Origin: Streptomyces sp. SAI-127
GTDB lineage: Bacteria; Actinomycetota; Actinomycetes; Streptomycetales; Streptomycetaceae
Direction: 5' to 3'
DNA length: 64,000 bases
Assembly (NCBI RefSeq): GCF_029894425.1
Contig: NZ_JARXYJ010000001.1
Coordinates: 4,464,001-4,528,000, forward strand
Below the pieces are notes generated by a model. That model did not search any database and had not been told where the DNA came from. It saw only the letters and a program-made list of their open reading frames with translations. Positions 8,611-63,674 of the stretch are shown here, piece after piece. The translations under genes and the position numbers were made by a program. Every line of letters begins with the position of its first letter. Position 1 is the first letter of the stretch.

Positions 8611-8616
8611 GCCTGC

Positions 8617-10611
8617 TCACGCTCCCGTGGCGACGAGGACGACGGCGACCGCGAGGACGACGGTGCCGGCGAGCAGCGCGCTCACATAGGTCTGCAGATT
8701 GCCGGTCTGGGCCCGTCGTACGGCGGTGCCAAGCCAGCGGGGCAGCGTTCCCGCGCCGCGCACGTAGGTCTCGACGACTTCGCGGTCCAGGAACCGGACG
8801 AGGGTGGCTCCGGCCTGGACCGGGCGGACGAAGGCGGCCGTGTACAGGGCGTCCATGTGGAAGCCGACGGCCGCGTGGCGGTGCAGTGGGCCGAGCAGCA
8901 ACCGTCCGGGGTCCGCGGGGTCGGGCGCGTAGGCCAGGTCTCCGTATGCGGGCTCGTGGGTGGCGATGGCCTCGGCCTCGACCAGTCCGGCGTCGCCCTC
9001 GGGGTGGGCGGCAACCGCACCCAGCGGGACGCGGGCCGTGACCGCACTGGTGTGCCGCCAGGCCGCGTAGGTGACGAGGCCGCCGATCAGGGCCACGCCC
9101 GTGCCGACGACGGAGGTGGTGAGGGTCGGGGTGAGGTCGCGGCCGTCGAACCAGTCGGGCAGCACGCGGTAGGAGAACGCGCCGAGGGCGAGGGACGGGG
9201 CCGCGAGGACCCAGAGGACCACCGTCATCGTCAGCGGCTGGCGTCCGTGGTCGGGGGCTTCGGTGCCCTGCCCGCGGAAGGCGAGCAGCCACAGCCGCGT
9301 CGCGTACGCGGCTGTGAGCAGGGCCGTGAGGAGGCCGGCGACGAGGGTGATCCAGCCTGCGGCGCCGGGGGCGTTTTCGGTGTGGCCGGTGGCGACGTGC
9401 TCCGCCGCGCCGAGGACGGACTCCTTGGAGAAGAAGCCGCTGAAGGGCGGGATCGCGGCGAGCGCGAGGAGCGCCACGGTCATCGTCCAGTAGGCGTCGG
9501 GGACACGGGCGCTCAGGTCCTTCATACGGGACATGGCGGCCAGTGAGTTGGTGCCGGCGGCGTGGATGATCACGCCGGCCGCGAGGAACAGCAGCGCCTT
9601 GAAGGCGCCGTGGGACAGGAGGTGGAAGACGGCGGCACCGCGGTCGCCGACGGCGAGAGCGCCGGTCATGTAGCCGAGCTGGCCGATCGTCGAGTAGGCG
9701 AGGACACGCTTGATGTCGTCCTGGGCGAGCGCGGCGAGACCCGAACCGATCATCGTGACGGCGGCCATGACGGCGAGGACCACCATCGCGGCCTGGGAGG
9801 CCTCGAAGACCGGGAGGAGACGGGCGATGAAGTAGACACCGGCGGCAACCATCGTCGCGGCGTGGATCAGCGCGGAGACGGGCGTGGGGCCCGCCATCGC
9901 GTCGGGGAGCCAGGTGTGCAGCGGGAACTGCGCCGACTTGCCCGCCACGCCCGCGAGGAGGAGCAGGGCGATCAGGGTCGGGTGGTCGAGTGCGCCGTGC
10001 GCAACGGCGTCGAGGACCTTCGTGATCCGGAAGGAGCCGGCGTCGGTGGCCAGGGCGAAGAGGCCGATCAGGAAGGGGACGTCACCGAGCTTGGTCACCA
10101 GGAATGCCTTGAGGGAGGCGGCGCGGGCCTCCGGGGTCTCCCAGTAGTGGCCGACCAGGAAGTACGAGCAGATGCCCATGATCTCCCAGCCGACCAGCAG
10201 CACGATCAGGTCGCCCGAGTAGACGACGAGCAGCATCGCGGAGGTGAAGAGGGAGACGAGAGCGGCGTAGGAGGGGTAGCGCGGGTCGTCGCGCAGATAG
10301 CCGGTCGAGTAGATCTGCACACAGGTGGCGACGAAGGCGACAAGGACGGCGACGAGGGCGGCGAAGCCGTCGATGTACAGGGCGAGTTCGATCGGGACCG
10401 AGCCGGTCGGGGTGAGTTCGGTGGCGGCGTTCACCGTCTGGTCGCCGCCCTGGCGTACGGCGACCACCGCGGCGAGCGCAAGAGCGGCCAGGGGCGGCAG
10501 GATGGCGAGCGGGCGGACGAAGCCGGGGGCGGTGCGGCCCAGGAGCAGGCCGGCCACGGCGCCCAGGAAGGGAAGGAGGGGGACGAGGACGGCGAGGGTG
10601 GTCGTGGTCAC
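8617..10611 (-). CDS. nuoL: NADH-quinone oxidoreductase subunit L
   Basis: The 664-residue protein is the distal proton-pumping subunit of complex I. It has the [27 protein letters not shown] region, [20 protein letters not shown], and the channel segment [28 protein letters not shown], followed by the [14 protein letters not shown] helix. The C-terminus carries the expected amphipathic/lateral region, with a divergent hydrophilic stretch around residues 540-600. Start is a GTG at 10611 overlapping the nuoK stop (GTGA), which implies coupled translation. Confidence 0.96.
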
Positions 10612-15556: not shown

Positions 15557-16215
15557 TGTGACTCCCCCTCGCCCGCAGACGAAGACGAAGCCGGAGACGA
15601 AGACGAAGACGACGCAGGCCCAGGAGGCTTGACCAACCCGCTCTGCAGCGCAGCCGCCGACGGACGCGCCGTGGACGACCCGTACCGCTCCTCCAGCGAC
15701 TCCCGGGCGATCTTCTCCTGGAGCTTCAGGATTCCCTGGAGCAGGGCCTCGGGGCGGGGCGGGCAGCCGGGGACGTAGACGTCGACGGGGATGATCTGGT
15801 CGACGCCCTTCGTCACGGAGTACGAGTCCCAGTACGGGCCGCCGCAGTTGGAGCAGGCGCCGAAGGAGATGACGTACTTGGGCTCGGGCATCTGCTCGTA
15901 CAGACGTTTCACCGCCGGTGCCATCTTGTCCGTGACCGTGCCGGAGACGACCATCAGGTCGGCCTGTCGCGGGCCCGGTGCGAAGGGGATCACGCCGAGG
16001 CGGATGAAGTCGTGGCGGGCCATCGAGGCGGCGATGAACTCGATGGCACAGCAGGCGAGACCGAAGTTGAAGACCCACAGGGAGTACCGGCGGCCCCAGT
16101 TGAGGATCACCTTCATCGGCTCGGGGGCGAGGCGGGCGAGGGCGCCCAGCCGTTGCGGCTCCGGGAGCAGAACGGGCCCCGTGACAGCGGAGTCGACCGC
16201 AGGGTTCACGTCCAT
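15553..16215 (-). CDS. nuoB: NADH-quinone oxidoreductase subunit B (cluster N2)
   Basis: The 220-residue protein keeps all four N2 cluster ligands: the tandem cysteines in GLACCAIEF (C55, C56), C121 in GACSNCGG and C151 in [10 protein letters not shown]2 is the last cluster before quinone. The RRYSLWVFN segment and [13 protein letters not shown] helix are standard. The last ~30 residues form a Pro/Ser tail not found in most NuoB. The ATG at 16215 lies within the end of nuoA (10-base overlap), and the stop overlaps nuoC (GTGA). Confidence 0.96.
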
Positions 16216-16628
16216 GTCAGGACACCCTTCTTGTACGCGTACAGCAAACCCACGGCGAGGAAACCGAGGAAGATGAACATCTCGACGAGGGTCGTCGCGC
16301 CGTAGCCGGGAGCCGCGAAGACCGTCGCCCAGGGGAACAGGAAGATCGAGTCGACGGCGAAGATGACGTAGAGGAAGGCGTAGACGTAGTAGCGGACCTG
16401 GGTGTGGGCCCAGCCCTCGCCGACGGGGTCGACTCCGCACTCGTACGTCAGGAGCTTCTCGGGGGTGGGCACCACGGGTCGCAGCAGACGGCCGGCGCCG
16501 AAGGCGACCGCGACGAACAGCACGCCGACGACGGCGAGCAGTCCGACGACCGAGTACGACTGGAAGTAGTCCGCCGCGACGACGGTCGGATCGACGACGG
16601 TTGCATCGACGACGGTCGGTTCCGGCAC
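16206..16628 (-). CDS. nuoA: NADH-quinone oxidoreductase subunit A
   Basis: This 140-residue, three-helix membrane subunit has the conserved loop [16 protein letters not shown] and [22 protein letters not shown], both central to complex I coupling. The N-terminus adds ~20 residues with a [13 protein letters not shown] pattern before TM1. It is the first gene of the leftward partial nuo operon; its upstream region is shared with the divergent sensor kinase gene. Confidence 0.95.
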
Positions 16629-16652
16629 GTCCGCCCCTCACTCCCTGTGAGC

Positions 16653-16689
16653 ACGCTGAACACAGTGCTTACGCTGAACAACACTGTTC
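16653..16689. promoter_or_regulatory. Direct and inverted repeats upstream of nuoA
   Basis: Two identical 10-base direct repeats ACGCTGAACA start at 16653 and 16671, 18 bases apart. They overlap an imperfect dyad, GAACACAGTG (16658-16667) and CACTGTTC (16682-16689). The cluster lies 25-60 bases upstream of nuoA in the divergent nuoA/sensor-kinase intergenic region, a plausible regulator site. No regulator is assigned. Confidence 0.4.
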
Positions 16690-16777
16690 GACGATCTGTA
16701 CGCACCGGAGTCTAGGCCCTGATAAAGGGACGGTAAGCAGCCCGTCACCGCGGGAAAGTCATCCGAAAGGCCGGGGT

Positions 16778-16789
16778 GGGGTTTTCCCC
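16778..16789. promoter_or_regulatory. GGGGTTTTCCCC element upstream of the first sensor kinase
   Basis: A G4-T4-C4 element lies 60 bases upstream of the kinase start. A related element in the opposite orientation (GGGAAAACCCC, at 18073-18083) lies between the two kinase genes. The pairing suggests a shared regulatory site; this is inference. Confidence 0.3.
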
Positions 16790-16849
16790 AGTAAGCCGCG
16801 GCGGCCCGCCTCATGGCGCGCGGCGGTCCGGGGCGGCACGCTAGCCCAT

Positions 16850-18073
16850 ATGACCGAACGCCATTCGTCCCCGAGCCGCGCCGTGACCACCGGCAGACAC
16901 GGCGGAACCGACGACGGCCGGCCGCCGCCGGCCCGTTTCGCCTACGACTCGCACACCTGGAAGGAGATCGCGCATCTCCTGGCGAACCTTCCGGTGTCGA
17001 TCCTCGGCTTCACCTACGTCGTGACGGTGCTGTTCACCGGTTTCTGGCTGACCGTCACGGTGATCGGATTCCCGTTGCTCGCGGCGGGTCTGCTGGGCGC
17101 GCGGCAGCTGGGCAAGCTGGAGCGGGCGCGGGCCCGGGCGCTGCTCGGAGTGCGGGTGGACGAACCGAGCCGTCTGCCGTGGCGCACCAAGAACGGCGGC
17201 AACGGCTTCTTCGCCCAGCTGTGGATGGGGGTGAAGGACCCCGTGGGCTGGCGGACGGTGCTGTACGACTTCATCCGGCTGCCCTGGGGGGTGCTGACCT
17301 TCACCATCACGCTGACCTCGTTGTTCGTGCTGTGGCCGGTCCTGCCGTTCATCGCGCGGGGGCTCGCCAACGTGGACCGGGTGATGGTGCGCGGTCTGCT
17401 GTCGCCCTCCGACGAGCTGGAACGCCGTATCGCCGAACTGGAGTCCGACCGGGGGGTCGTGGTCGACACGGCCGCCGCCGATCTACGGCGTATCGAGCGC
17501 GATCTGCACGACGGGGCGCAGGCCCGGCTGGTCAACCTGGCCATGGGTCTCGGCCTCGCGAAGGAGAAGCTCCTGGAGGACCCCGAGTACGCGCAGGCGA
17601 TGGTCGAAGAGGCGCACGGCGAGGTGAAGCTGGCGCTTCAGGAGCTGCGGGATCTGGCGCGGGGCATCCATCCGGCCGTACTGACCGACCGAGGCCTCGA
17701 CGCGGCGCTGTCCAGTGTCGCCTCGCGGTGCACGGTCCCGGTGAAGGTGACCGCCGACCTCGACGCGCGCCCGGTCCAGGCGATCGAGGGGATCGCCTAC
17801 TTCACCGTCTCCGAGCTGCTCCAGAACGTCAGCAAGCACAGCGGGGCCCGGTCGGCGTCGGTCGACGTGTGGCGCTCGGAGAACCGGCTGCTCATCCAGG
17901 TGTGGGACGACGGCCGCGGCGGAGCCCGGCTCGACGGCGGCACCGGTATGCGCGGGCTCGCGGAGCGCCTTGACGCGGTCGACGGGCTGTTCGTCATCGA
18001 CTCGCCGCCGGGCGGTCCGACGGTCGTCACGGCGGAGCTGCCGTGGCGGGACCGTGGCCTGGACAAGGGGTAG
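16850..18073 (+). CDS. NarL-family sensor histidine kinase (first of a tandem pair)
   Basis: The 407-residue protein has an N-terminal membrane sensor region (about residues 40-190, two pairs of hydrophobic segments), a HisKA_3 dimerisation domain with the phospho-acceptor in ERDLHDGAQARLV (H220), and a HATPase_c domain with VSELLQNVSKHS (N box), VWDDGRGGA (G1) and GTGMRGLAERL (G2). Such kinases phosphorylate NarL/LuxR-type regulators, and one is encoded about 3.3 kb downstream. The ATG at 16850 was chosen because the longer in-frame sequence upstream is not protein-like. It is closely related to the next gene. Confidence 0.92.
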   Translation: MTERHSSPSRAVTTGRHGGTDDGRPPPARFAYDSHTWKEIAHLLANLPVSILGFTYVVTVLFTGFWLTVTVIGFPLLAAGLLGARQLGKLERARARALLGVRVDEPSRLPWRTKNGGNGFFAQLWMGVKDPVGWRTVLYDFIRLPWGVLTFTITLTSLFVLWPVLPFIARGLANVDRVMVRGLLSPSDELERRIAELESDRGVVVDTAAADLRRIERDLHDGAQARLVNLAMGLGLAKEKLLEDPEYAQAMVEEAHGEVKLALQELRDLARGIHPAVLTDRGLDAALSSVASRCTVPVKVTADLDARPVQAIEGIAYFTVSELLQNVSKHSGARSASVDVWRSENRLLIQVWDDGRGGARLDGGTGMRGLAERLDAVDGLFVIDSPPGGPTVVTAELPWRDRGLDKG

Positions 18074-18185
18074 GGAAAACCCCCCTTTCAAGAGGCCGAC
18101 GGACTCCATGGTCCGTTGAGCTGCGGCCCAGCAGGGTGGAGATACGACACCACAGGCGCGGGACGAGAGAAGAAGGACGACGTCG

Positions 18186-19529
18186 ATGGCCACGGACTAC
18201 GGGTACGACAGTGGGCTCGGGTTCCCCGAGACGGTACGGCGGCACCGGGTGCCGGCCGGGCTGCGGGCGCCGTTCGAGGGGCGGACCTGGCGGGAGTTCG
18301 GCTATGTGCTGCTGAGCCTGCCGATCAGCATCGTGATGTTCACGTACGCCGTCACGATGATCTCGCTCGGCGCGGGCCTCCTCGTGACCTTCCTCGGGAT
18401 TCCGGTCTTCGCGGCCGGGCTCGCCGGATGCCGTGGGCTCGGCGCGCTGGAGCGGGCGCGGGCTCGGGGGCTGCTGGGTCTGGAGGTCGGGGATCCGGAG
18501 CCGCTCAGGATGCGGAAGTCCGGGTTCATGGCGTGGGTGGGGGCGGTGCTCAAGAGCGGGACGTCGTGGCGGACTCTGCTGTACTCGGTGCTGCATCTGC
18601 CGTGGGCGACGTTCTCGTTCGTCGTCGCGGTGAACTTCTGGGTGTACGGCTGGGCGCTGCTGACGTATCCGCTGTGGTTCTGGGTCTTCCCGGCGTACGT
18701 CGGTCAGGACGGGCTTCAGCTCTACGGCGACCAGACCCACCACATCTACCTGGACAACCCGTTCGAGATCGGTGTGACCGCGCTGGTGGGACTGTTGTTC
18801 ACGCTGGCCACGCCGTGGATCGTGCGGGCACTGACGACGGTGGACCGGGCGATGGTGCACGGGCTGCTCGGGCCGACCCGGCTGTCGGCGCGGGTGGTGG
18901 AGCTGGAGTCCGACCGGGGGGTCGTGGTGGACACGGCGGCCGCGGATCTGCGTCGGATCGAGCGGGATCTGCACGACGGGGCGCAGGCTCGGCTGGTGGC
19001 GCTGGCCATGGATCTGGGGCTGGCGAAGGAGAAGCTCACGGAGGATCCTGCCGCAGCGGCGCGGATGGTGGACGAGGCGCACGGTGAGGTGAAGACGGCG
19101 CTTCAGGAGCTGCGGGATCTGGCGCGGGGGATTCATCCGGCGGTGCTGACCGACCGGGGGCTGGACGCCGCGCTGTCGGCGGTGGCTTCCCGGTGCACGG
19201 TGCCGGTGCAGGTGGAGGTGGATCTTCCGGCCCGGCCTGCGCCGGCGATCGAGGGGATCGCGTACTTCACGGTGTCGGAGCTGTTGCAGAACATCAGCAA
19301 GCACTCTCGGGCGACGCTCGCCGCGGTGGATGTGTGGCGGGTGGAGAACCGGTTGATGCTGCAGGTCGTGGACAACGGGGTCGGTGGGGCGGATGTGTCC
19401 TCCGGGTCCGGGCTTGCGGGGTTGGCGGAGCGGCTGGACGCGGTGGACGGGATCCTGGTGGTGGATTCGCCGGTCGGGGGGCCCACGCGCGTGACGGCGG
19501 AGTTGCCGTGGCGGAGCGAGCGGGTGTGA
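18186..19529 (+). CDS. NarL-family sensor histidine kinase (second of a tandem pair)
   Basis: The 447-residue paralogue of the preceding kinase shares long near-identical stretches, such as LESDRGVVVDTAAADLRRIERDLHDG, with H263 as phospho-acceptor. It keeps the N, G1 and G2 boxes. It differs mainly in the membrane region, where a ~40-residue insertion (around residues 160-205) sits between the two hydrophobic pairs. It follows after 112 bases, in the same direction. The pair looks like a tandem duplication diverged in the sensing half, implying two inputs into one regulator. Confidence 0.92.
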   Translation: MATDYGYDSGLGFPETVRRHRVPAGLRAPFEGRTWREFGYVLLSLPISIVMFTYAVTMISLGAGLLVTFLGIPVFAAGLAGCRGLGALERARARGLLGLEVGDPEPLRMRKSGFMAWVGAVLKSGTSWRTLLYSVLHLPWATFSFVVAVNFWVYGWALLTYPLWFWVFPAYVGQDGLQLYGDQTHHIYLDNPFEIGVTALVGLLFTLATPWIVRALTTVDRAMVHGLLGPTRLSARVVELESDRGVVVDTAAADLRRIERDLHDGAQARLVALAMDLGLAKEKLTEDPAAAARMVDEAHGEVKTALQELRDLARGIHPAVLTDRGLDAALSAVASRCTVPVQVEVDLPARPAPAIEGIAYFTVSELLQNISKHSRATLAAVDVWRVENRLMLQVVDNGVGGADVSSGSGLAGLAERLDAVDGILVVDSPVGGPTRVTAELPWRSERV

Positions 19530-20208
19530 CGGGTACCGAGTGAGAGGGCGGTGGGGGTCGTTTTCGCCCTCGCCGCCCTCACCCATTCCCATCCCCTTGG
19601 GCTGCCGCCCCTTCGCCCGCGAGGGCGACTGCGCGGGTCAGCCCCGGGCGGACTCCGCCTAGGGGTGCGGCCGCCCTCTTACCCCTTGCCCACAGGGCTG
19701 CACCCTCTGCACTCCGCCGGGACCCCGCCCCGAGCCGCCCGGGGCTTCCCCGCGGCCGCCAGGGCTCCGCCCCGCACCCCCGCGGACTTCCCCACCCCGC
19801 CCCCGCCAGGCCTGCACCCCTGAACCCACCGGAGCCCCGCCCCCAACCCCCGCAAAGGCTCCCTCCCCCGCACGCTCCGGGGTTGCATCCGGGGCTCGGG
19901 CCAACCACCCCCTGCGCCCCGCCCAGGACCGCACCCCTGAACCCACTGCAAGACCGACGCCCTCCGAAGCACCCGGCCGGCACCCGCAAAACCCCGCCCC
20001 CACCCTCCCCAAGCCACCGGCGTCTCCCGCCCCCGGCGGACTCCCCCGTGGCGAAGATGGCCGGATGTCGAGTGTGGCCCCGTGTTATCGGGTCCTTGTT
20101 CGTATTCCTGGGGCCTAATCCCGTTGCCCGCGCCCGCCCGGATCCGAATGCTGGAATGCTGGACTTGTCCGGCGGGTGGGCAGGTAGTGGGCTGGGGGGC
20201 CGAGAGTC
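19530..20208. other. Non-coding cytosine-rich tract between kinase and response regulator
   Basis: From about 19550 to 20050 the + strand is dominated by C runs (CCCCGCCCC, CCCACCCC, ACCCCCG), with few G runs. Open frames on either strand here are low-complexity and match no family, so I see no gene. The minus strand of 19768-19806 has four closely spaced G runs (4-5 G, loops of 1, 8 and 3), a possible G-quadruplex. The last ~150 bases have normal composition and probably hold the regulator's promoter. Confidence 0.6.
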
Positions 20209-20880
20209 GTGGAGGACAGGGTGCGGGTGGTCATCGCCGAGGATTCAGTGCTGCTGAGGGAGGGCCTGACCCGGTTGCTGACCGACCGCGGGCACGACGT
20301 CGTGGCCGGTGTGGGCGACGGGGAGGCACTGATCAAGACCATCGGTGAGCTGGACGCCCAGGGCGAGCTGCCCGACGTCGTCGTCGCCGATGTGCGGATG
20401 CCTCCGACGCACACGGACGAGGGCGTGCGAGCCGCCGTACAACTGCGCAAGGCACATCCCGGACTCGGGGTACTCGTACTGTCGCAGTACGTGGAGGAGC
20501 GGTACGCCACCGAGTTGCTGGCCGGGTCCAGTCGCGGGGTGGGGTACCTGCTCAAGGACCGGGTCGCGGAGGTGCGTGAGTTCGTGGACGCGGTGGTGCG
20601 GGTGGCCGAGGGAGGGACCGCCCTCGACCCCGAGGTGGTCGCTCAGCTGCTGGGACGCAGCCGTAAGCAGGACGTGCTCGCCAATCTCACGCCCCGGGAG
20701 CGGGAGGTCCTAGGACTCATGGCCGAGGGGCGCACCAATTCGGCGATCGCGCGGCAGCTCGTCGTGAGCGACGGGGCCGTGGAGAAGCATGTCAGCAACA
20801 TCTTCCTGAAGCTCGGGCTGTCACCGAGCGACGGGGACCACCGGCGGGTGCTGGCGGTGCTGACCTACCTGAACTCCTGA
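20209..20880 (+). CDS. NarL/LuxR-family response regulator
   Basis: The 223-residue protein has a receiver domain, with the acidic pair in VVIAEDSVLLREGL, phospho-acceptor D61 in VVVADVRMPP, the switch region VLVLSQYVEERY and lysine in LLKDRV. A C-terminal LuxR-type helix-turn-helix follows (LTPREREVLGLMAEGRTNSAIA and VEKHVSNIFLKLGL). Start is a GTG at 20209; a GTG four codons later is also possible. It is the natural partner of the two upstream kinases, although a 679-base non-coding tract separates them. A perfect palindrome begins three bases after its stop. Confidence 0.93.
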   Translation: MEDRVRVVIAEDSVLLREGLTRLLTDRGHDVVAGVGDGEALIKTIGELDAQGELPDVVVADVRMPPTHTDEGVRAAVQLRKAHPGLGVLVLSQYVEERYATELLAGSSRGVGYLLKDRVAEVREFVDAVVRVAEGGTALDPEVVAQLLGRSRKQDVLANLTPREREVLGLMAEGRTNSAIARQLVVSDGAVEKHVSNIFLKLGLSPSDGDHRRVLAVLTYLNS

Positions 20881-43289: not shown

Positions 43290-43430
43290 GGCGGACGCCG
43301 AATCCTGCCACCGCCCGTACACCCACCGAGAAACCAGGGCAGGAGCGGGGGACCCAGGTAAGCCGCCGGACCGGGCGTCTTCGGACATACCGGTACGGCT
43401 TGGGGTGAAGTCACGCCTTTCGTAGGCGTG
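43290..43430 (+). ncRNA. c-di-AMP riboswitch (ydaO/yuaA type) upstream of the transglycosylase gene
   Basis: The 448-base leader before the transglycosylase contains the ydaO-type landmarks in order: GCCGAATCCTGCC, GGCAGGAGCGGGGGACCCAGGTA, and CTTGGGGTGAAG. ydaO riboswitches bind cyclic di-AMP and in streptomycetes precede cell-wall hydrolase genes, matching this position. The remaining ~245 bases upstream (43045-43289) contain no gene I can see. Confidence 0.85.
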
Positions 43431-43492
43431 TCCGGGCAACTCCAGCCCGAACCCGACAGCTCACCTCGCAGGCGCCGGAGAGGAACTTCGCC

Positions 43493-52769: not shown

Positions 52770-54029
52770 TCAGTTGGTCGTGCCGCCGCGGCGGTTGGCC
52801 CGCCACAGCTGGTAGAGGTGCTTGGCACCCGGCCGCACGAAGCGCCCGAGCATCGTGAGGAACGGCAGCGGGTCGTCACCCGCGAGCCAGGCCAGCTCGG
52901 TCCCGCTGGGCCGCTTCGGCGCGTGCGGTGTCGTATAGCCGCTGCGGCGGTAGGCGAGCAGGGCGGGCAGGTCGATGTTCTCCACGACATAGCGGTGACC
53001 GGCCCGCTGTTCCCCCTCCGGAACGGCACGTCCGGTCAGATCCAGGTGCATGGCGCGGACGACGTCCACCGCCGACTCGCTCTCGAAGAGCCGGAACTGG
53101 GCGCCCATGCGGGGGTTGAAGTCGAGCAGTTTGTACTGACCGTCGCGCCGGTCGAAGCGCAGGTCGAGGTCGATGATGCCGGTGTAGCCGATCTGTTTGA
53201 TGAACCGTGCGGCGAGGTCCGCGAGTTCCGGGTTGTCGACGACGTACGCGTTGGCCGTCATGCCCGCGTGCGGCGGCCAGGAGCGGACCTTGACGCCGGT
53301 GAAGATGGCCAGCGGTGTGGAGTCGCGGTCGAAGTAGGCGTGCACGATCCAGTCCTCGGCCTCCTCTCGCGGCAGGTACTCCTGGAGGATCACCCCGGGC
53401 CGCTCACCCCAGTCACGGGCGAGGGCGAGCAGCCCTTCACGGGTGGCGATGCGCGTGGTGCCGCTGACCGCGGGCCGCCGGCGCCGTACGAACGCCTCGC
53501 GGTTCTTGGCCACCACCGGGAAACGGGCCTTCTCGGCGAAGTCCACGATGTCTTCGTACGACTGCGGGAAGGCGGCCTCCGGGCTCGCGATCCCGTGTTC
53601 CACGCACAGTTCGTGCAGGCCCTGTTTGCTGGCCAGCCGGCGGGGCAGGCCGGGCTCCACGCGCGGGAAGAGGAAGCGGCCGAAGAGGTCGTTCTGGTGC
53701 TCGGCGATCAGGACCGCCGCCTCCTCGTCGGTCGGTACCAGGACGGCGGGGCGGCCGATGCGGCGCCCGATCCGGATCAGTCCCTCGATCAGCCGGCCCG
53801 GGTCCTCGGTGCCGGTCGTCGGCCAGACGAACGCGCGGGTGAGGTACCGGGAGGCGGCCGCGGGCGTGTAGCGGTCCTCCGTGATGGCGTACATGGGCAC
53901 GCCCAGGCGGCCCAGACTGCGGATCGCGCCGACTCCGCCGTGGTGCAGCGGGTAGTCGCCGAACTTGACGATCAGGGCCGGCACCTCACGATCGGCCTCG
54001 AATGGCACACTGCTCGCGCTTCTGGCCAC
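52770..54029 (-). CDS. ATP-grasp carboxylate-amine ligase-like protein
   Basis: The 419-residue protein has an N-terminal Rossmann-like part (IVKFGDYPLHHGGVGAIRSLGRLG, VLVPTDEEAAVLIAEHQ) and an ATP-grasp domain: KARFPVVAKNRE (ATP lysine), PGVILQEYLPREEAEDWIVHAYFD, and the metal-binding LDLDLRFDRRDGQYKLLDFNPRMG. These enzymes join a carboxylate to an amine using ATP. Start is a GTG at 54029. With the following monooxygenase it probably makes or modifies a peptide-like small molecule; the product is unknown. Confidence 0.87.
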   Translation of the reverse strand: MARSASSVPFEADREVPALIVKFGDYPLHHGGVGAIRSLGRLGVPMYAITEDRYTPAAASRYLTRAFVWPTTGTEDPGRLIEGLIRIGRRIGRPAVLVPTDEEAAVLIAEHQNDLFGRFLFPRVEPGLPRRLASKQGLHELCVEHGIASPEAAFPQSYEDIVDFAEKARFPVVAKNREAFVRRRRPAVSGTTRIATREGLLALARDWGERPGVILQEYLPREEAEDWIVHAYFDRDSTPLAIFTGVKVRSWPPHAGMTANAYVVDNPELADLAARFIKQIGYTGIIDLDLRFDRRDGQYKLLDFNPRMGAQFRLFESESAVDVVRAMHLDLTGRAVPEGEQRAGHRYVVENIDLPALLAYRRSGYTTPHAPKRPSGTELAWLAGDDPLPFLTMLGRFVRPGAKHLYQLWRANRRGGTTN

Positions 54030-56587: not shown

Positions 56588-56788
56588 GCGGTCGGTTGTC
56601 GGCCGCGGGCCCGGTGGGGCTGGTCGCGCAGTTCCCCGCGCCCCTGGGTGGGTTGCAGCCGCCCTCGCTTTCTTCGGCAGGTGGCACATGTCACCCCACG
56701 GCGCCTGAAACCGCAGGTCAGACACGGATCCGTCACTGCGTCAGGTGGCGCAACAATCCAGCAACACAGCTTTTCCTACCGGCTCGGT

Positions 56789-57586
56789 ATGGTTCCGGCC
56801 ATGCCATCCACCGACCGTGTCCGGGACCACGCCGGCCAAGGCGCGACCACCGTCGCCGCCCGCGCCCGGCGCCGGCTGCGTGCGGACCAGGCACGACAGC
56901 TCGCCGACCTTCTGCGCCACCAGCTCCTGACCGGCGGCTTCGAGGACGGCACCCTCCCCCACGAGACGACCCTCGCCACCGACTACCGCGCCTCCCGCAA
57001 CACGGTCCGCCAAGCCCTGGACCTGCTTCGCGCCGAAGGCCTGGTCGAACGCCTCCCCGGCGTCGGCACCGTGGTCGTGGGCCAGAAGTACCCCCATGGC
57101 CTGGACCGTCTGATGGGTCTCGCGGAAACCCTGCACGAACACGGCACGGTCACCAACGAGGTCCGCACCATGGGCCCGGCCGCCGCCCCCCACCCGGTCG
57201 CCCGGCGCCTCCAGATCGCCCCCGGCACCGACGTCCTCTACATCGAACGCCTGCGCCGCCTGAATGGCCTCCCCCTCTCCCTCGACCTCACCTACCTCCC
57301 CCTCGACATCGGCACCGCCCTGCTCGGCGCCGACCTCGAGAACACCGACGTCTTCCGCCTCCTGGAGACGATCACCGGCCAGGGCCTCGGCCACGCCGAG
57401 ATCACCCTGGAGGCGGTGAACGCGGACGCCCACTCCGCCGCCGTACTGGAAGCCCCGCGCGGCGCGGCCGTCCTGATGCTGGAACGCCTCACCCACCTCG
57501 CCGACGGCCGACCCGTCGACCTGGAGTTCATCCGCTTCCGCGGCGACCGCATCACGATGAGCGGCCTGCTGCACCGCTCCCTCTGA
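56789..57586 (+). CDS. GntR-family transcriptional regulator (HutC/UTRA type)
   Basis: The 265-residue protein has a winged helix-turn-helix (LADLLRHQLLTGGF, LPHETTLATDYRASRNTVRQALDLLRAEGLVERLPGVGTVV) and a C-terminal UTRA-like ligand domain (PHPVARRLQIAPGTDVLYIERLRRLNGLPLSLDLTYLP). The ATG at 56789 is favoured; an ATG at 56801 is equally possible because no clear ribosome site precedes either. It is the first gene of the operon containing ferredoxin, ABC transporter and flavoprotein, 31 bases ahead of the ferredoxin, and is the likely regulator of that operon. Confidence 0.9.
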   Translation: MVPAMPSTDRVRDHAGQGATTVAARARRRLRADQARQLADLLRHQLLTGGFEDGTLPHETTLATDYRASRNTVRQALDLLRAEGLVERLPGVGTVVVGQKYPHGLDRLMGLAETLHEHGTVTNEVRTMGPAAAPHPVARRLQIAPGTDVLYIERLRRLNGLPLSLDLTYLPLDIGTALLGADLENTDVFRLLETITGQGLGHAEITLEAVNADAHSAAVLEAPRGAAVLMLERLTHLADGRPVDLEFIRFRGDRITMSGLLHRSL

Positions 57587-57617
57587 CCTCTTTCCGAGCC
57601 GTTTCCTGGAGACAGCC

Positions 57618-57845
57618 ATGCCCTTGGCGCCCCAGCGGGCCGACGTGCCCGTGACCATCGACGAGTCGAAGTGCATCGACGGCTGCACGCTCTGCGTGGA
57701 CATGTGCCCGCTGGACTCCCTCGCCATCGACGAGAGCAACGGCAAGGCCTACATGCACGTCGACGAGTGCTGGTACTGCGGCCCGTGCGCGGCCCGCTGT
57801 CCCACCGGAGCCGTCACGGTCAACATGCCCTATCTGCTCCGGTGA
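57618..57845 (+). CDS. Two-cluster [4Fe-4S] ferredoxin-like protein
   Basis: The 75-residue protein has two iron-sulfur motifs: CIDGCTLCVDMCP (residues 19-31, with an unusual C-x3-C start instead of C-x2-C) and CWYCGPCAARCP (about 51-62, standard). It resembles the small iron-sulfur partner (AprB-like) of the flavoprotein encoded 3 kb downstream, and would pass electrons to or from it. ATG preceded by GGAG. It belongs to the GntR-led operon, 16 bases ahead of the binding protein. Confidence 0.92.
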   Translation: MPLAPQRADVPVTIDESKCIDGCTLCVDMCPLDSLAIDESNGKAYMHVDECWYCGPCAARCPTGAVTVNMPYLLR

Positions 57846-57861
57846 GAGGTCCAGAACTCCC

Positions 57862-59199
57862 ATGAAACACAAACCGGTTGTCGCCGCTCTGCTGCTGTTC
57901 GCGCCACTGACGGCCTGCGGCAGTGCCCAGGCGGGCGACAGTTCCACGGTCACCGTCACCGTCGGCTACCAGTCCAAGACCATCAACACGGTCACGGCCG
58001 GAACGCTGCTTCGCTCGCTCGGCTACTTCGAGAAGCAGCTCAACTCCCTCCACGACGGCCACACCTACAAGGTCGACTGGCAGGACTACGCCACCGGCGC
58101 CCCCATCACCGCGCAGATGACCGCCGGGAAGATCGACATCGGCTCGATGGGCGACTTCCCGCTGCTCATCAACGCGGCCCGCGGCAAGCAGCTCGGCAAG
58201 CCCACCCGCCTGGTCTCGGTCACCGGCTACAACCTGCGCGGCGGCCTCAACACGATCGTCACCTCCCCCGGCTCGGACCTCGCCTCACTCGACGACCTGC
58301 GCGGCAAGAAGGTCTCCACGAGCGTCGGCTCCGCCGCCGACGGCACTCTCGTACGGGCCCTGCAGCGCGCCGGCATCGACCCCGACAAGGGCATCGAGAA
58401 GCTCAACCAGCAGCCCGCGGTGGGTGCTTCGGCCCTGTCGGCGGGCAGCGCGGACGCCCTGTCGCAGTTCGTCGCCTGGCCCGGTCTGCTCGCCTACCAG
58501 GGCAAGGCGAAGGCGCTCTACGACGGTGCCGAGCTCGACCTCCCCACCTTCCACGGCGTCACCGCCCGCGAGGACTTCGCGAAGCGGCGGCCGCCGGTCC
58601 TGGAGGCGTTCCTGAAGGCCCAGGCCGAGGCCACCGACTACCTCAACGCCCACCCGGTCGGCGCCGCCGAGTCGGTCGCCAAGGCCACCGGCCTGCCCGC
58701 CGAGGTCGTCTACCTCTACAACGGCGCCCACGGCATCGCCACCTTCGACCCGGCGATCAAGCCCCAACTGGTCTCCGCCCTGAAGAAGGACGTCTCGGTC
58801 CTGAAGGCGGCCAAGCTGACCGGTGACGTGGACGTGGACTCCTTCGTCGACGACCAGTACGTCAAGAAGGCCCTCGGGTCCGACTACGCGGGTCGCCTCG
58901 CCCTGAATCCGCCCGCCTCCGCGAGCGAGGTCTGGCCCAAGGGCGCCTCCAGGACGCAGAGCTTCAAGACGCCCGCCGAACTCCTCGCGTACGTCTCCGC
59001 GCACAAGGACGGCGTCCGCGCCGCCTACGTCCCCGACGCCACCACCGGCACCCTCTGGTTCGCCGACAAGGCGGTCTGGGTGGCCGACGGCGACGAACTG
59101 CTGCCCTTCGTGGCGCCGGAGACCGCGCAGGCCTACGTCTCCGCGCACGGCGGCGCCCGGGTCGTCACGTACGCCGAGGCGCTGGAGCGGGCGTCGTGA
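57862..59199 (+). CDS. ABC transporter substrate-binding lipoprotein with C-terminal NosL-like domain
   Basis: The 445-residue protein has a lipoprotein signal with C19 in PLTACGS, then a nitrate/sulfonate/taurine-type binding fold (TVTVGYQSKTINTV, TAGKIDIGSMGDFPLLINA, LDDLRGKKVSTSVGSAADGTL). The usual fold ends near residue 335. Residues ~366-440 then look like the C-terminal half of NosL: TPAELLAYVSAHKDGVRAAYVPD, TLWFADKAVWVADG and LLPFVAPETAQAYVSAHGGARVVTYAEAL. The N-terminal copper-binding part of NosL is absent. The stop overlaps the permease start (GTGA). Confidence 0.87.
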   Translation: MKHKPVVAALLLFAPLTACGSAQAGDSSTVTVTVGYQSKTINTVTAGTLLRSLGYFEKQLNSLHDGHTYKVDWQDYATGAPITAQMTAGKIDIGSMGDFPLLINAARGKQLGKPTRLVSVTGYNLRGGLNTIVTSPGSDLASLDDLRGKKVSTSVGSAADGTLVRALQRAGIDPDKGIEKLNQQPAVGASALSAGSADALSQFVAWPGLLAYQGKAKALYDGAELDLPTFHGVTAREDFAKRRPPVLEAFLKAQAEATDYLNAHPVGAAESVAKATGLPAEVVYLYNGAHGIATFDPAIKPQLVSALKKDVSVLKAAKLTGDVDVDSFVDDQYVKKALGSDYAGRLALNPPASASEVWPKGASRTQSFKTPAELLAYVSAHKDGVRAAYVPDATTGTLWFADKAVWVADGDELLPFVAPETAQAYVSAHGGARVVTYAEALERAS

Positions 59200-60104
59200 G
59201 CGGGAAGGCGCGCGCAAGCCGGGGCCGGGGGGTGCCCCGGCTCGGCCGGTACGCGCTGCGGGCGGGCTCGCTCGCGGTCGCCCTCGGCGGGTGGCAGCTG
59301 CTGACCAGCCTCGACATCGATATGTGGCTGCGCTTCTCGCAGTTCCCCACGGTCGCCGACGTGGCCCGCACCTTCGCCGACCGGCTGTCCGGCCCGGACT
59401 ACTGGACGGACCTCACCGACAGCCTCACCCGCATCCTCACCGGTTTCCTGCTGGCCGCGGTGCTCGGTGTGGCGGCGGGCGTGCTCGTGGCGCGCTCCCG
59501 TCTCGCCGAGGACCTGCTCGGCCCGGTCCTGGAGGTCGTCCGCCCGATCCCGGCGATCGCCCTCGTCCCCGTCGCGATCCTGCTGTTCCCCTCCAACGAA
59601 CAGGGCATCGTCTTCATCACCTTCACCGCCGCCTTCTTCCCCGTCCTGGTCTCCACCCGGCACGCGGTCCGCGCGCTGACCCCCGGATGGGAGGAGGCGG
59701 TGCTGACCATGGGCGGCGGCCGCTGGTGGATCCTCGCCTCGGTCGTGCTGCCGGGCGCCCTGCCCGGCATCTTCGGCGGCCTGTCCGTCGGCATCGGCGT
59801 CTCGTGGATCTGTGTGATCTCCGCCGAGATGATCTCCGGCCAGTACGGCGTCGGCTACCGCACCTGGCAGGACTACACCGTCGTCAACTACGCGGGCGTC
59901 TTCGTCGGCATGGTCACCATCGGCGTCCTCGGCTGGCTCACCTCCACGGCCGTGGAACTCCTGGGGCGCCGCCTGACGCGATGGCTGCCGAGGACGTCGT
60001 ACGTCGCTGCCGGCCGGCCGGCGCGGCGGGTGGACCGTGCCGCGGCCGCGGTGCCGGTGAGCCCCACGACTCGGGAGGGCGTGCCCCATGACCAGCTCGT
60101 CTGA
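59196..60104 (+). CDS. ABC transporter permease (SsuC/TauC type)
   Basis: The 302-residue protein has six helices and the EAA-type loop LTPGWEEAVLTMGGGRWWILASVVLPGALPGIFGGLSVGIGVSWI. The pattern DSLTRILTGFLLAAVLGVAAGVLVARS at TM1-TM2 fits sulfonate/nitrate importers. The C-terminal 40 residues (LPRTSYVAAGRPARRVDRAAAA) are hydrophilic. Start is a GTG overlapping the binding-protein stop. The ATPase gene begins 17 bases before its end. Confidence 0.92.
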   Translation: MSGKARASRGRGVPRLGRYALRAGSLAVALGGWQLLTSLDIDMWLRFSQFPTVADVARTFADRLSGPDYWTDLTDSLTRILTGFLLAAVLGVAAGVLVARSRLAEDLLGPVLEVVRPIPAIALVPVAILLFPSNEQGIVFITFTAAFFPVLVSTRHAVRALTPGWEEAVLTMGGGRWWILASVVLPGALPGIFGGLSVGIGVSWICVISAEMISGQYGVGYRTWQDYTVVNYAGVFVGMVTIGVLGWLTSTAVELLGRRLTRWLPRTSYVAAGRPARRVDRAAAAVPVSPTTREGVPHDQLV

Positions 60105-60855
60105 CGTCCGTTCGCCCGCCCGCGCCGGCGCGGCACTGGCGCTGCGCGGCGCCGCTCTCGGGCGGCCCGACGTGCCCGTGCTCGACGGAGTGGACCTCGT
60201 GGTGGCTCCCGGCGAGATCCTGACCCTCGTCGGGCCCTCCGGATGCGGCAAGTCGACGCTGCTGCGCACGCTCGCCGGACTGTTGTCGCCGCTTGCCGGA
60301 GAGGTCAGCCAGGACGGACGCCCGCTGACGGGCCCCGCCGCCCACCGCGCCCTGATCTTCCAGGAGGACGCCCTCCTGCCCTGGCGCACCCTGCGCTCGA
60401 ACGTCGAACTGCCGCTCGCGATCAAGGGGTTGCCGCGTGCGGAGCGCAGGCGGCAGGCACAGGCGTGGCTGGAGCGCGTCGGACTTGCCGACCAGGCCGG
60501 GCAGTTGCCGCACCGTGTCTCCGGCGGACAGCGCCAGCGCGCCCAGCTGGCCCGCGCCCTCGCGGGAGCGCCGCGCGCCGTCCTCATGGACGAACCCTTC
60601 GGCGCCCTGGACGCCCAGACCCGCGCCGGAATGCAGGACCTCCTCGTCGAGGTGCTGCGGGGCACCGGGGCCACCGTCGTCTTCGTCACCCACGACGTGG
60701 ACGAGGCCCTCTTCCTGGGCGACCGGGTCGCGCTCATCGGCTCCGGCCGCCTGGTCGCCGTACGTGACGTGCCCCGCCCGCGTGACCGCGCGGCCCACGA
60801 CGACCAGGCACACCTGGCGCTGCGGCGCGACGTCCTCTCCTCGCTCGGTACGTGA
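60088..60855 (+). CDS. ABC transporter ATP-binding protein (SsuB/TauB type)
   Basis: The 255-residue ATPase has Walker A GPSGCGKSTLLRTLAGLL, Q-loop FQEDALLPWRTL, signature VSGGQRQRAQLARAL, Walker B AVLMDEPFGALD and the H-loop FVTHDVDEALFLGDRV. The FQEDALLPW Q-loop is typical of sulfonate/nitrate/taurine importers. It overlaps the permease gene by 17 bases and the flavoprotein gene by four (GTGA). Confidence 0.94.
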   Translation: MTSSSDVRSPARAGAALALRGAALGRPDVPVLDGVDLVVAPGEILTLVGPSGCGKSTLLRTLAGLLSPLAGEVSQDGRPLTGPAAHRALIFQEDALLPWRTLRSNVELPLAIKGLPRAERRRQAQAWLERVGLADQAGQLPHRVSGGQRQRAQLARALAGAPRAVLMDEPFGALDAQTRAGMQDLLVEVLRGTGATVVFVTHDVDEALFLGDRVALIGSGRLVAVRDVPRPRDRAAHDDQAHLALRRDVLSSLGT

Positions 60856-63674
60856 AAGGCACCCTGGTGGACACCCCTCTGCAGATTCCGGCCCTCGACG
60901 AGGCCGAGGAACTCACCTGCGACGTCCTTGTCATCGGCGGCGGCACCGCCGGCACCATGGCCGCCCTGACCGCCGCCGAGCACGGCGCGGACGTCATCCT
61001 GCTGGAGAAGGCCCACGTCCGGCACTCCGGCGCCCTCGCCATGGGCATGGACGGCGTCAACAACGCGGTCATCCCCGGCCGCGCCGAACCGGACGACTAC
61101 GTCGCCGAGATCACCCGCGCCAACGACGGCATCGTCGACCAGTCCACCGTCCGCCAGACCGCCACCCGCGGTTTCGGGATGGTGCAGCGTCTGGAGTCGT
61201 ACGGCGTGAAGTTCGAGAAGGACGAGCACGGCGACTACGCGGTCCGCCAGGTCCATCGCTCCGGTTCGTACGTGCTGCCGATGCCGGAGGGCAAGGACGT
61301 CAAGAAGGTCCTGTACCGGCAGCTGCGGCGGCGCGAGATGCGGGAGCGGATCCGCATCGAGAACCGGGTGATGCCGGTGCGGGTGCTGACCGCTCCCGAG
61401 GACGGGCGTGCGGTGGGCGCGGTCGGCTTCAACACGCGTACGGGCGCGTTCGTCACGGTCCGCGCGGGCGCGGTGATCCTGGCGACCGGTGCCTGCGGCC
61501 GCCTGGGCCTGCCCGCCTCGGGCTACCTGTACGGCACCTACGAGAACCCGACCAACGCGGGCGACGGCTACGCCATGGCCTACCACGCGGGCGCCGAGCT
61601 CACCGGTATCGAGTGCTTCCAGATCAATCCGCTGATCAAGGACTACAACGGGCCGGCCTGCGCGTACGTCGCCAACCCCTTCGGCGGCTACCAGGTCAAC
61701 CGGCACGGCGAGCGCTTCGTCGACTCGGACTACTGGTCCGGCCAGATGATGGCCGAGTTCGCGGCGGAGATCGCGTCCGACCGGGGGCCGGTGTACCTGA
61801 AGCTGAGCCACCTCCCCGAGGAGTCGATCTCGTCCCTGGAGGCGATCCTGCACTCCACGGAACGGCCCACGCGGGGGACGTTCCATGAGGGCCGCGGTCA
61901 CGACTACCGCACTCACGACATCGAGATGCACATCTCCGAGATCGGCCTGTGCGGCGGCCACTCGGCCTCCGGGGTCCGCGTCGACGACCACGCCCGTACG
62001 ACCGTCCCCCGCCTCTACGCCGCCGGCGACCTGGCCTGCGTCCCGCACAACTACATGATCGGCGCCTTCGTCTTCGGTGACCTGGCCGGCGCGGACGCCT
62101 CCCGGTACTCGCCGTACGAAGGGGAGTTGCCGCCCGACCAGCTCCGCGAGGCGCACGAACTGATCTACCGCCCGCTGCGCAACCCGGACGGCCCGCCGCA
62201 GCCACAGGTCGAGTACAAGCTCCGTCGCTTCGTGAACGACTACGTGGCCCCGCCGAAGTCGGGGGCGCGGCTGTCGCTGGCTCTGGAGTCCTTCGAGCGG
62301 ATGCGCACCGACATCGCCTCGATGGGTGCCCGCACCGCGCACGAGTTGATGCGCTGCGCCGAGGTCTCCTTCATCCGCGACTGCGCCGAGATGGCCGCGC
62401 GCGCCTCCCTCGCCCGAACGGAGTCCCGCTGGGGCCTGTACCACGACCGTCTCGACCACCCCCATCGCGACGACACCTCCTGGTTCCACCATCTCGACCT
62501 GCACAAGTCCCCCTCCGGTGCGATGGAGTTCACGGCTCGTCCCGTGGCTCCCTATCTGGTCCCCATCGACGAGTTCACCCCCGTCGGCGGCGCCTCCCGG
62601 TACCTCGGCGAGGTGCACGCCGAGGTGGTGGCGACGGCGGGGGCGCGGGAGGTGGCCCCGGTCGCGGTCGGGCAGTTCGGTGCCACGAACGACACGGCCG
62701 CCGACCGTCCCGGTGCCGACACCGTGACGGACGCCCCGGACTCACCCGCCCCGGTCTCCTCCGCCCCCGTCTCCTCCGCCCCGGTCTCACCCCGTCTGCT
62801 CGGACTCCTCGCTCTCGCCGAGCAGGAACCCGAACTCGCCGTCATCCGGACCTACTTGTCCGATCCCGAGCCCGCTGTCCGCCGTACGGCCGTCACCGTC
62901 CTGACGGAGACCGCGCCACCAGGGACCGGACCGGTCCTCGCCACGGCCCTCACCGACCGCGACCCCGGCGTCCGCGCCGCCGCGGCGGCGTCCCTGCGCG
63001 AACTCGTCGAGACGCTCCCGCCGGAACCCGCCCTCCGCGAGGGTCTCGCCGCCGCCCTGGCCGAGTCCGACCCGGTCGTCCGCGCCGCCGCCCTGGACGT
63101 GCTGCGTGCCCTGCACCTCGGCGACACGGAACTGTTCGCCGGCTCCCTGAGCGACTCGGACATCGCCGTCCGCATCGAGGCCGTCCGCGCCCTCGTCTCC
63201 GTGGACGCCGCCGTGGAACTCGCCCGCGCGGCGACCACCGACCCCTCCCGCGAGGTCCGCGTGACGATCGCCAAGGCACTGGCCACGGTGTCGGCGGAAC
63301 GCCCGCTCGACGTCGTCCTCGACGCCTTGTCCCGTCTCACCGAGGACCCCGACGCCCTGGTACGGGGGGCCGCTTACGCAGCGCTGGGCACCACCGGCTG
63401 CCCCGCCCCCCTCGCCTCCCGCGCCGTCGCCGCCCTGTCGGCCGCCGCCTGGCAGGTCCGGTCGGGTGCCGCGACGGCGCTGTCCGCCGCCGAACCCGAT
63501 GTGGCCGTCCCCGCCCTCGCCATGGCCCTCGCCGACCCGAACGCCGACGTCCGCAAGGCCGCCGTCCTCGCCCTGACCCGGCACACGAGCGCCGACGACG
63601 CCCGCGCGGCCCTGGCCACGGCGACGACGGACTCGGACGCGGACGTGAGGGCGTATGCGGCGCGGGCCCTGTGA
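60852..63674 (+). CDS. AprA/fumarate-reductase-like flavoprotein fused to C-terminal HEAT repeats
   Basis: The 940-residue protein has an FAD-binding domain (VLVIGGGTAGTMAALTAAEHGADVILLEKAHVRHSGA, residues ~31-67), with GDGYAMAYHAGAEL and IGLCGGHSASGVRVDDHARTTVPRLYAAGDLACVPHN, typical of the succinate dehydrogenase/fumarate reductase/AprA superfamily. A helical C-terminal flavoprotein domain follows (about 430-600). Residues ~645-940 hold eight or nine HEAT-like repeats (SDPEPAVRRTAVTVL, DRDPGVRAAAAASL, ESDPVVRAAALDVL, DPNADVRKAAVLAL). The RHSGALAMG start resembles adenylylsulfate reductase AprA and related sulfur-oxidoreductases. It is last in the GntR-ferredoxin-ABC operon (GTGA overlap) and probably acts on the imported compound. 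Confidence 0.88.
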   Translation: MKGTLVDTPLQIPALDEAEELTCDVLVIGGGTAGTMAALTAAEHGADVILLEKAHVRHSGALAMGMDGVNNAVIPGRAEPDDYVAEITRANDGIVDQSTVRQTATRGFGMVQRLESYGVKFEKDEHGDYAVRQVHRSGSYVLPMPEGKDVKKVLYRQLRRREMRERIRIENRVMPVRVLTAPEDGRAVGAVGFNTRTGAFVTVRAGAVILATGACGRLGLPASGYLYGTYENPTNAGDGYAMAYHAGAELTGIECFQINPLIKDYNGPACAYVANPFGGYQVNRHGERFVDSDYWSGQMMAEFAAEIASDRGPVYLKLSHLPEESISSLEAILHSTERPTRGTFHEGRGHDYRTHDIEMHISEIGLCGGHSASGVRVDDHARTTVPRLYAAGDLACVPHNYMIGAFVFGDLAGADASRYSPYEGELPPDQLREAHELIYRPLRNPDGPPQPQVEYKLRRFVNDYVAPPKSGARLSLALESFERMRTDIASMGARTAHELMRCAEVSFIRDCAEMAARASLARTESRWGLYHDRLDHPHRDDTSWFHHLDLHKSPSGAMEFTARPVAPYLVPIDEFTPVGGASRYLGEVHAEVVATAGAREVAPVAVGQFGATNDTAADRPGADTVTDAPDSPAPVSSAPVSSAPVSPRLLGLLALAEQEPELAVIRTYLSDPEPAVRRTAVTVLTETAPPGTGPVLATALTDRDPGVRAAAAASLRELVETLPPEPALREGLAAALAESDPVVRAAALDVLRALHLGDTELFAGSLSDSDIAVRIEAVRALVSVDAAVELARAATTDPSREVRVTIAKALATVSAERPLDVVLDALSRLTEDPDALVRGAAYAALGTTGCPAPLASRAVAALSAAAWQVRSGAATALSAAEPDVAVPALAMALADPNADVRKAAVLALTRHTSADDARAALATATTDSDADVRAYAARAL

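Follow-up and report, generated by a model that had tools for sequence, protein, structure and literature searches.

The operon described here consists of six closely packed genes at 56789..63674 of a 64,000-nucleotide (nt) stretch of Streptomyces sp. SAI-127 (hereafter the window, within which positions are given), and it is best explained as a sulfur-acquisition system that would import a sulfonate-type compound and release sulfite from it reductively. The full mechanism is assigned a probability of roughly 0.45, and the sulfur setting taken without it a somewhat higher one. An earlier note on this DNA had suggested a redox step on an imported small molecule, perhaps a compound with a sulfur or other oxyanion; with a sulfur-oxyanion compound, this is the best-supported reading, as the operon combines a sulfonate-type binding protein with an AprAB-like enzyme and, in some loci, has sulfonate or sulfone genes as neighbours, so that the interpretation offered in that note is upheld in part. 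Comparisons of sequence and structure establish the gene content and its linkage, the sulfonate-type contacts of the predicted binding protein, the AprA/AprB-like architecture, and the proximity of sulfonate and sulfone genes in some lineages.

The flavoprotein, in which Pfam and NCBIfam scans detect FAD_binding_2, Succ_DH_flav_C and HEAT repeats, is a member of a catalogued family that carries no assigned reaction. It matches NF010374/PRK13800, a model that includes the HEAT part, at 1651.1 bits (cut-off 1196) over positions 1-895 of 898, and NF006131/PRK08275 at 861 bits (cut-off 587); it is a full-length member with no difference from either. Both models are named fumarate reductase/succinate dehydrogenase in NCBIfam, a functional label that is not borne out. 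A tree of 30 sequences separates the 16 members of the family from the rest with a support of 1.000, and in it the adenosine 5'-phosphosulfate (APS) and 3'-phosphoadenosine 5'-phosphosulfate (PAPS) reductases (APR/PAPSR, 5 sequences) and SdhA/FrdA/NadB (5 sequences) each closed at 1.000 without the family. This tree is unrooted and shown midpoint-rooted, the family neighbouring the APR group only under that rooting; its AprA reference is partial, and four flavoproteins (UNK rows) stand unlabelled in it for want of an NCBIfam match at E 1e-150. An identity as fumarate reductase or succinate dehydrogenase, for which the database name and the Succ_DH_flav_C domain would speak, is hardly credible in view of its separate clade, the replacement of the QHP-motif His of the five SdhA/FrdA/NadB sequences by N259 in 16/16 family members, an operon without SdhB/C/D partners, and scores below the cut-offs of all specific SdhA, FrdA and NadB models listed.

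The nearest solved chain is the alpha subunit of the PAPS reductase of M. thermolithotrophicus (8a8o_A, E 6e-54), followed by AprA. As in AprAB and this PAPS reductase, an FAD (flavin adenine dinucleotide) alpha subunit of the fumarate-reductase superfamily is accompanied by a 2x[4Fe-4S] beta subunit with an electron-transfer Trp. In the ferredoxin, all eight cluster Cys are present in 17/17 aligned family members, and the Trp of its CWxC motif is invariant in 20/20 sequences, including three assimilatory AprB-like proteins. A tryptophan has been proposed as an electron carrier in PAPS reductase (PMC10322725), which in our own reading is the CWxC Trp. The likeness extends into the flavoprotein pocket, where N70 (16/16 family members) corresponds to an Asn in 5/5 APR/PAPSR sequences (N74 in A. 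fulgidus), and H370 of the GGH motif (16/16) to a His in 4/5, namely those that cover the position, which the 2fja piece used does not span. The GGH-motif His of A. fulgidus is presumably residue 398, and we take Asn74, Trp234, Arg265 and His398 to be the functional pocket residues of its AprA. This set is incomplete in the family, which retains the Asn and His and replaces the Trp and Arg: Trp (W234) gives way to Y230, Arg (R265) to L261 and a Phe to Q257 in 16/16 members, whereas APR/PAPSR sequences keep Trp, Phe and Arg in 5/5. Further differences from AprAB and PAPS reductase are C255, C270 and C367, which are specific to the family, the absence from the ferredoxin of the C-terminal tail that AprB-like proteins have, the separate clade, and the lack of a sulfite reductase gene in the operon. 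The pair is thus, as judged from sequence comparison, AprAB-like in architecture and predicted electron path, but its active site is not that of an APS reductase.

These comparisons also bear on the proposal that the operon provides sulfate assimilation with a further APS/PAPS reductase as a back-up. Its two-subunit AprAB-like architecture and the assimilatory PAPS reductase as closest structure would fit such a role, which is nonetheless very improbable given the replacement, in 16/16 members, of the Arg and Trp found in the five APR/PAPSR sequences, and scores far below the aprA cut-offs (129.9 vs 641.75 bits for TIGR02061; 258.7 vs 557 for PRK06854). The operon contains no ATP sulfurylase gene, and elsewhere in the host genome (10.7 Mb, assembled into 3 contigs) two PF01507 (PAPS_reduct) genes, interpreted as CysH and CysD, already lie side by side, with another SsuABC-like importer next to them.

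A binding protein, a permease and an ATPase form an SsuABC/TauABC-type set within the one operon, and fold searches with the binding protein return alkanesulfonate and taurine binding proteins as the closest. The sulfonate-contact positions of TauA/SsuA, Gln30/36, Gly61/68 and Gly79/86 (PMC6906117, PMC3839906), map to Q37 (44/44 homologues), G79 (44/44) and G97 (Gly in 34/44, Ala in 10/44). The resemblance to SsuABC/TauABC thus covers the binding-protein fold, the predicted sulfonate-contact residues, a permease of the SsuC/NtrB class and the ATPase. The differences lie in an added NosL-like domain, in the failure of the binding protein to reach the SsuA_fam cut-off (140.7 vs 163.5 bits), in the module's lack of SsuD/E or TauD as constant partners, and in H231, which is invariant (44/44) at the position of TauA D205 and SsuA G187, suggesting that the remainder of the ligand is not taurine-like. 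The permease scores below the cut-offs of all its NCBIfam models (SaoP 126.9, ntrB 118.6, TauC 105 and SsuC 102.2 bits), as does the ATPase for its best one, the taurine ATPase (210.7 bits vs 357). That a non-sulfur substrate is imported and then reduced, such as a nitrate-, phosphonate- or carboxylate-like small anion or an amine-anion, appears unlikely. It draws on the same H231, on a binding-protein fold common to binders of bicarbonate, nitrate, phosphite and thiamin precursors, on a regulator that scores best (below cut-off) against PhnF, and on the lack of a detected sulfur neighbour in most actinobacterial loci.

The C-terminal domain of the binding protein matches NosL at 20 bits against a cut-off of 24, and a NosL match at E <=0.01 occurs in 14/44 homologues. 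The copper ligands of NosL are of the Cys/Met type, and the C-terminal 92 residues of the window's binding protein contain no Cys or Met; the domain therefore does not match a NosL copper protein by score or ligands, and a copper-binding role, which was considered, appears unlikely. The fold searches listed no NosL chain among their matches, a result that barely probes the C-terminal domain and excludes nothing.

The operon is nearly invariant in actinobacteria. A scan of GTDB species genomes matched at least 597 stretches, at least 587 of them encoding relatives, from which the best-scoring 80 loci were taken, all actinobacterial (the stretches are not necessarily distinct loci). All six genes, including the C-terminal part of the binding protein, occur in the same order in 76/80; among the four exceptions, L129, L141 and L147 are cut by contig ends and L121 has no GntR match. 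Minimum identities where found were 78% for the flavoprotein, 76% for the ferredoxin, 52% for the binding protein and 46% for the HEAT part. The 11 loci first looked at (L043-L053) keep the gene set in the same order throughout, a GntR match being missing only in L046. An origin of the operon as an artefact or by chance is ruled out by this six-gene conservation. Near-identical named proteins, among the matches listed, all come from Streptomyces; NF010374 is reached above cut-off in 14/41 relatives' genomes, and NF006131 in 8/296 genomes sampled evenly across the phylum. Neither of two outcomes that the earlier note had set against its own interpretation was found, as the flavoprotein forms its own clade rather than joining a family whose substrate is assigned, and the surveyed loci preserve the linkage of the genes.

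The fusions that the same note had considered unusual prove to be the rule. Flavoprotein and HEAT array form one open frame in 89/92 actinobacterial loci (two others are cut by contig ends), and the HEAT part is built into NF010374; a peculiarity of the SAI-127 genome is thereby ruled out, and the C-terminal extension of the binding protein is likewise constant in the family among the best 80 loci. L046 is unfused, its flavoprotein and HEAT protein lying in separate, overlapping frames (7381-10019, - strand), by a natural split or a frameshift. An AlphaFold2 model of the whole flavoprotein, built on a shallow alignment of 14 sequences, is poor in the FAD domain (mean predicted local distance difference test, pLDDT, 64.7) and confident for the HEAT array (blocks mostly >=85 from about residue 661), for which alone it was used.

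Proteobacteria and Cyanobacteria have the module as well. Plasmid records searched at the protein level gave 54 matching records, mostly at ~56-62% identity, from hosts that include rhizobia, Burkholderiales, Acinetobacter, Methylocystis, Acidithiobacillus and Cyanobacteria. The non-actinobacterial neighbourhoods come from plasmid records alone, 18 of the 54 matches having been opened: 17 family loci and a distant APR-like Ilyobacter record that is excluded from the 17-locus counts. One of the 17, from Tsukamurella, belongs to an actinobacterium and encodes the fusion protein; each of the remaining 16 has one cluster in which flavoprotein, ferredoxin and HEAT protein are encoded individually, by three genes. 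The actinobacterial protein is therefore a fusion of two genes that are neighbours elsewhere. An orthologous importer lies near the cluster in 14/16, being absent or different in Nostoc and Mesorhizobium. In L065 (A. caldus pTcM1, 16065-20324) the importer is apparently interrupted, an ISL3-like transposase separating the permease from a short binding-protein gene.

The HEAT gene of these loci (L063-L079) has a DUF971-type neighbour in 8/16 and an Mrp/NBP35 Fe-S-carrier-type neighbour in another 4/16, never both (domains were checked in four examples). Such company recalls Fe-S cluster assembly, which in eukaryotes also involves a HEAT protein. A Crp/Fnr-type regulator adjoins the module in place of GntR in L064, L073, L074, L075 and L078 (rhizobia and Methylobacterium), where low-oxygen or symbiotic expression is possible. 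Two phage records labelled Acinetobacter phage MD-2021a (H55 and H56) carry the flavoprotein gene at 58% identity, probably as Acinetobacter host DNA; nine further phage-collection records gave weaker matches. A viral origin was considered and rejected, as none of 13 pattern matches in a scan of viral contigs coded for a relative.

Sulfur genes accompany the module in part of its range. In L111 (S. olindensis), SfnB, SsuE and SfnG, all above their cut-offs, lie beside the operon together with an SsuD-like gene, and L046, from another family, has SsuA (SsuA_fam) and SsuE above cut-off and an SsuD-like gene below its own. SsuD-like genes of at least 49% identity flank 5/91 actinobacterial loci (L046, L085, L089, L105, L111), against 0.13 expected in 1.08 Mb of flank from the 23 found at >=45% identity across 187 Mb from 21 genomes. 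Under a Poisson model, five would arise with a probability of 3e-7, or, should no more than two of the events be independent, two with 0.008; the 23 were counted by hand, and the loci are treated as independent, which they are not. In three cyanobacterial loci, the cluster is followed by TauE/SafE together with a YeiH-type or sulfate-exporter gene; in Aquabacterium, TauE lies ahead of it. By annotation, sulfur genes outside the module are found in 8/17 plasmid loci versus 1/6 control stretches from the same plasmids (longer stretches, ~290 kb in total, the single positive having four sulfate-transport genes, with scoring by annotation and hand). Distant APR-like relatives keep sulfur company as well: L054 lies with ATP sulfurylase, a sulfite-reductase-like gene, CysK and an SsuABC-like importer, L055 adjoins a sulfite-reductase-like gene only, and the Ilyobacter relative (L080) adjoins CysC and CysD. 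Two results from the actinobacterial loci, obtained at E 1e-8 with few queries, weigh against a sulfur role: 73/91 have no SsuD, LLM or TauD neighbour, and a TauE neighbour occurs in 0/91. Genomic context points to sulfur in part, in a minority of loci only.

The layout bears out the earlier description of six coupled genes of these types (Table 1), with which open reading frames, domains and junctions agree. All six frames lie on the + strand, and Pfam and NCBIfam scans return GntR with UTRA, a 2x[4Fe-4S] ferredoxin, an NMT1/SsuA-type binding protein, a binding-protein-dependent (BPD) permease and an ATP-binding cassette (ABC) ATPase ahead of the flavoprotein. Gaps of 31 nt (gntR/ferredoxin) and 16 nt (ferredoxin/binding protein) are followed by overlaps of 4, 17 and 4 nt; this spacing fits a coupled operon, for which co-transcription is predicted. 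Two features from elsewhere in the window close the table.

Table 1. Predicted features of the operon and its surroundings, with positions in the window
Feature	Position	Strand	Remarks
Conserved upstream (putative promoter/operator) elements before gntR	56680..56770	+	e.g. CCGCAGGTCAG at 56711, TCAGGTGGCGCAACA at 56741
GntR-family (HutC/UTRA type) regulator	56789-57586	+	ATG start; a longer open reading frame runs from GTG 56648
2x[4Fe-4S] ferredoxin, AprB-like without the C-terminal tail	57618-57845	+	Fer4_7 E 4e-10
Lipoprotein substrate-binding protein, SsuA/TauA-like	57862-59199	+	NosL-like C-terminal domain, ~residues 354-439
ABC importer permease, SsuC/NtrB class	59196-60104	+	GTG start; PF00528 E 3e-19
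ABC importer ATPase, TauB/SsuB/NrtD class	60088-60855	+	PF00005 E 5e-31
AprA-like FAD flavoprotein (residues ~19-575) with fused HEAT-repeat array (~646-939)	60852-63674	+	940 aa; GTG start
c-di-AMP riboswitch (ydaO/yuaA leader)	43314-43489	+	Sole Rfam match at gathering threshold in the window
ATP-grasp-like protein	52770-54029	-	Family matches weak: PF15632 and carbamoyl phosphate synthase-like models, all below cut-off

The regulator matches PF00392 (E 7e-15) and the UTRA domain PF07702 (E 6e-34), and its best NCBIfam match is PhnF, at 105 bits below a cut-off of 156.8. The 8-mer TGGCGCAA, on either strand, is present in 63/78 sequences spanning 260 nt upstream of the gntR start, and the common GntR operator form GT-N(0-2)-TA-N(1-2)-AC is rare there, with two occurrences in total among the 78 upstream regions. 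The conserved upstream elements are accordingly not of the usual GntR operator form, and their regulatory role is putative. The orthologous GntR of A. baumannii is reported to bind its own promoter and activate its operon (PMC13104710).

That operon, A1S_1717-1722 of A. baumannii ATCC 17978, was studied by Corral et al. in 2026 (PMC13104710), and the earlier statement that no experimentally described system of such composition was known is therefore superseded; literature searches by operon parts among open-licence papers returned no other description of the composition. As given there, it encodes GntR, a fumarate reductase/succinate dehydrogenase, a 4Fe-4S protein, a binding protein, a permease and an ATPase; it is transcribed as a single transcript, is directly activated by GntR and belongs to the OxyR regulon. 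It thus has the same six gene types in one operon, and a divergent chromate transporter stands beside it, as in L071. Sequences were compared through L071, a plasmid record of a strain different from ATCC 17978, with identities to the window's proteins of 57% for the flavoprotein, 62% for the ferredoxin, 32% for the binding protein, 41% for the permease, 42% for the ATPase and 36% for GntR. L071 differs in that flavoprotein and ferredoxin precede the transporter and that HEAT and DUF971 are separate genes downstream.

The authors of that study term the transporter an efflux pump, and the terms sulfonate, sulfur, importer and HEAT have 0 occurrences in the main text of the paper, so that an import role is not discussed there in such words (PMC13104710). 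The corresponding proposal for the window's operon, an ABC efflux and oxidative-stress system that exports toxic compounds and in which the redox genes are accessory, is favoured by the A. baumannii results: mutants lacking the regulator or the permease survived H2O2 less well and were less resistant to antimicrobials, and the genes share one transcript within the OxyR regulon (PMC13104710). It appears improbable here, because the exporter architecture is missing and a binding protein with an SsuC/NtrB-class permease is an importer layout, from which the transport direction is predicted, and because the stress phenotypes could stem from a sulfur or thiol shortage under import. Binding-protein-dependent ABC systems are importers.

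In the sulfur-acquisition mechanism, the SsuABC/TauABC-type importer would take up a small organic molecule carrying a sulfonate-like -SO3 group, on which the AprAB-like enzyme would act inside the cell. The ferredoxin would dock on the flavoprotein and pass low-potential electrons via the conserved Trp to the FAD, which would most likely attack the oxidised sulfur and free sulfite, which could then be assimilated. The HEAT array probably serves the flavoprotein-ferredoxin complex as a scaffold for docking or helps it to mature, and the UTRA-type GntR, probably sensing the compound or its product, would control the operon. Substrate, reductive direction, sulfite as the product and the role of the HEAT array are, at this point, what we infer.

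The same sulfur context would equally serve an enzyme working in the oxidising direction, on the carbon skeleton or the sulfur of the imported compound, with the ferredoxin removing electrons and any sulfite being made later by another enzyme. This alternative is rather unlikely. The superfamily does contain dehydrogenases and oxidases (e.g., SdhA and NadB) and the host genera are mostly aerobic, but the enzyme's closest relatives of known structure are reductases, an aerobe would not usually employ a low-potential 2x[4Fe-4S] ferredoxin as acceptor, and the surveyed loci do not share a separate desulfonase as a constant component of the module. For the reductive mechanism, a precedent for cleavage of a sulfonate to sulfite exists in isethionate reductase IsrBHDK, which resembles the proposal in the reductive release of sulfite from a sulfonate imported by an SsuABC-type importer and differs in being nitrogenase-like and anaerobic, with no sequence relation claimed (PMC11423573).

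The usual aerobic routes from sulfonate to sulfite, SsuD and TauD, are oxygenases. It is conceivable, if doubtful, that the module represents a flavin/[4Fe-4S] reductive desulfonase, neither oxygenase nor radical enzyme, that releases sulfite from a sulfonate or from the S-sulfonate of an over-oxidised thiol in aerobic soil and host-associated bacteria, with the HEAT protein (sometimes with a DUF971 or Mrp/NBP35 neighbour) as a dedicated maturation factor. An S-sulfonate substrate, if true, would also explain the H2O2 induction of, and the protection by, the A. baumannii orthologue. What is new here is the combination of an AprAB-like enzyme that has a different active site with a HEAT partner and an SsuABC-type importer, in a family that is catalogued and of which one operon has been studied under another reading. 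Most sulfur in aerobic soils is present as organosulfur compounds, sulfonates and sulfate esters among them (PMC3839906). A widespread and highly conserved pairing of an importer with an APS-reductase-like enzyme that has no assigned substrate represents a gap in sulfur metabolism, and its correct assignment would alter the reading of the Acinetobacter phenotypes, as databases now call the enzyme fumarate reductase and the transporter has been published as an efflux pump.

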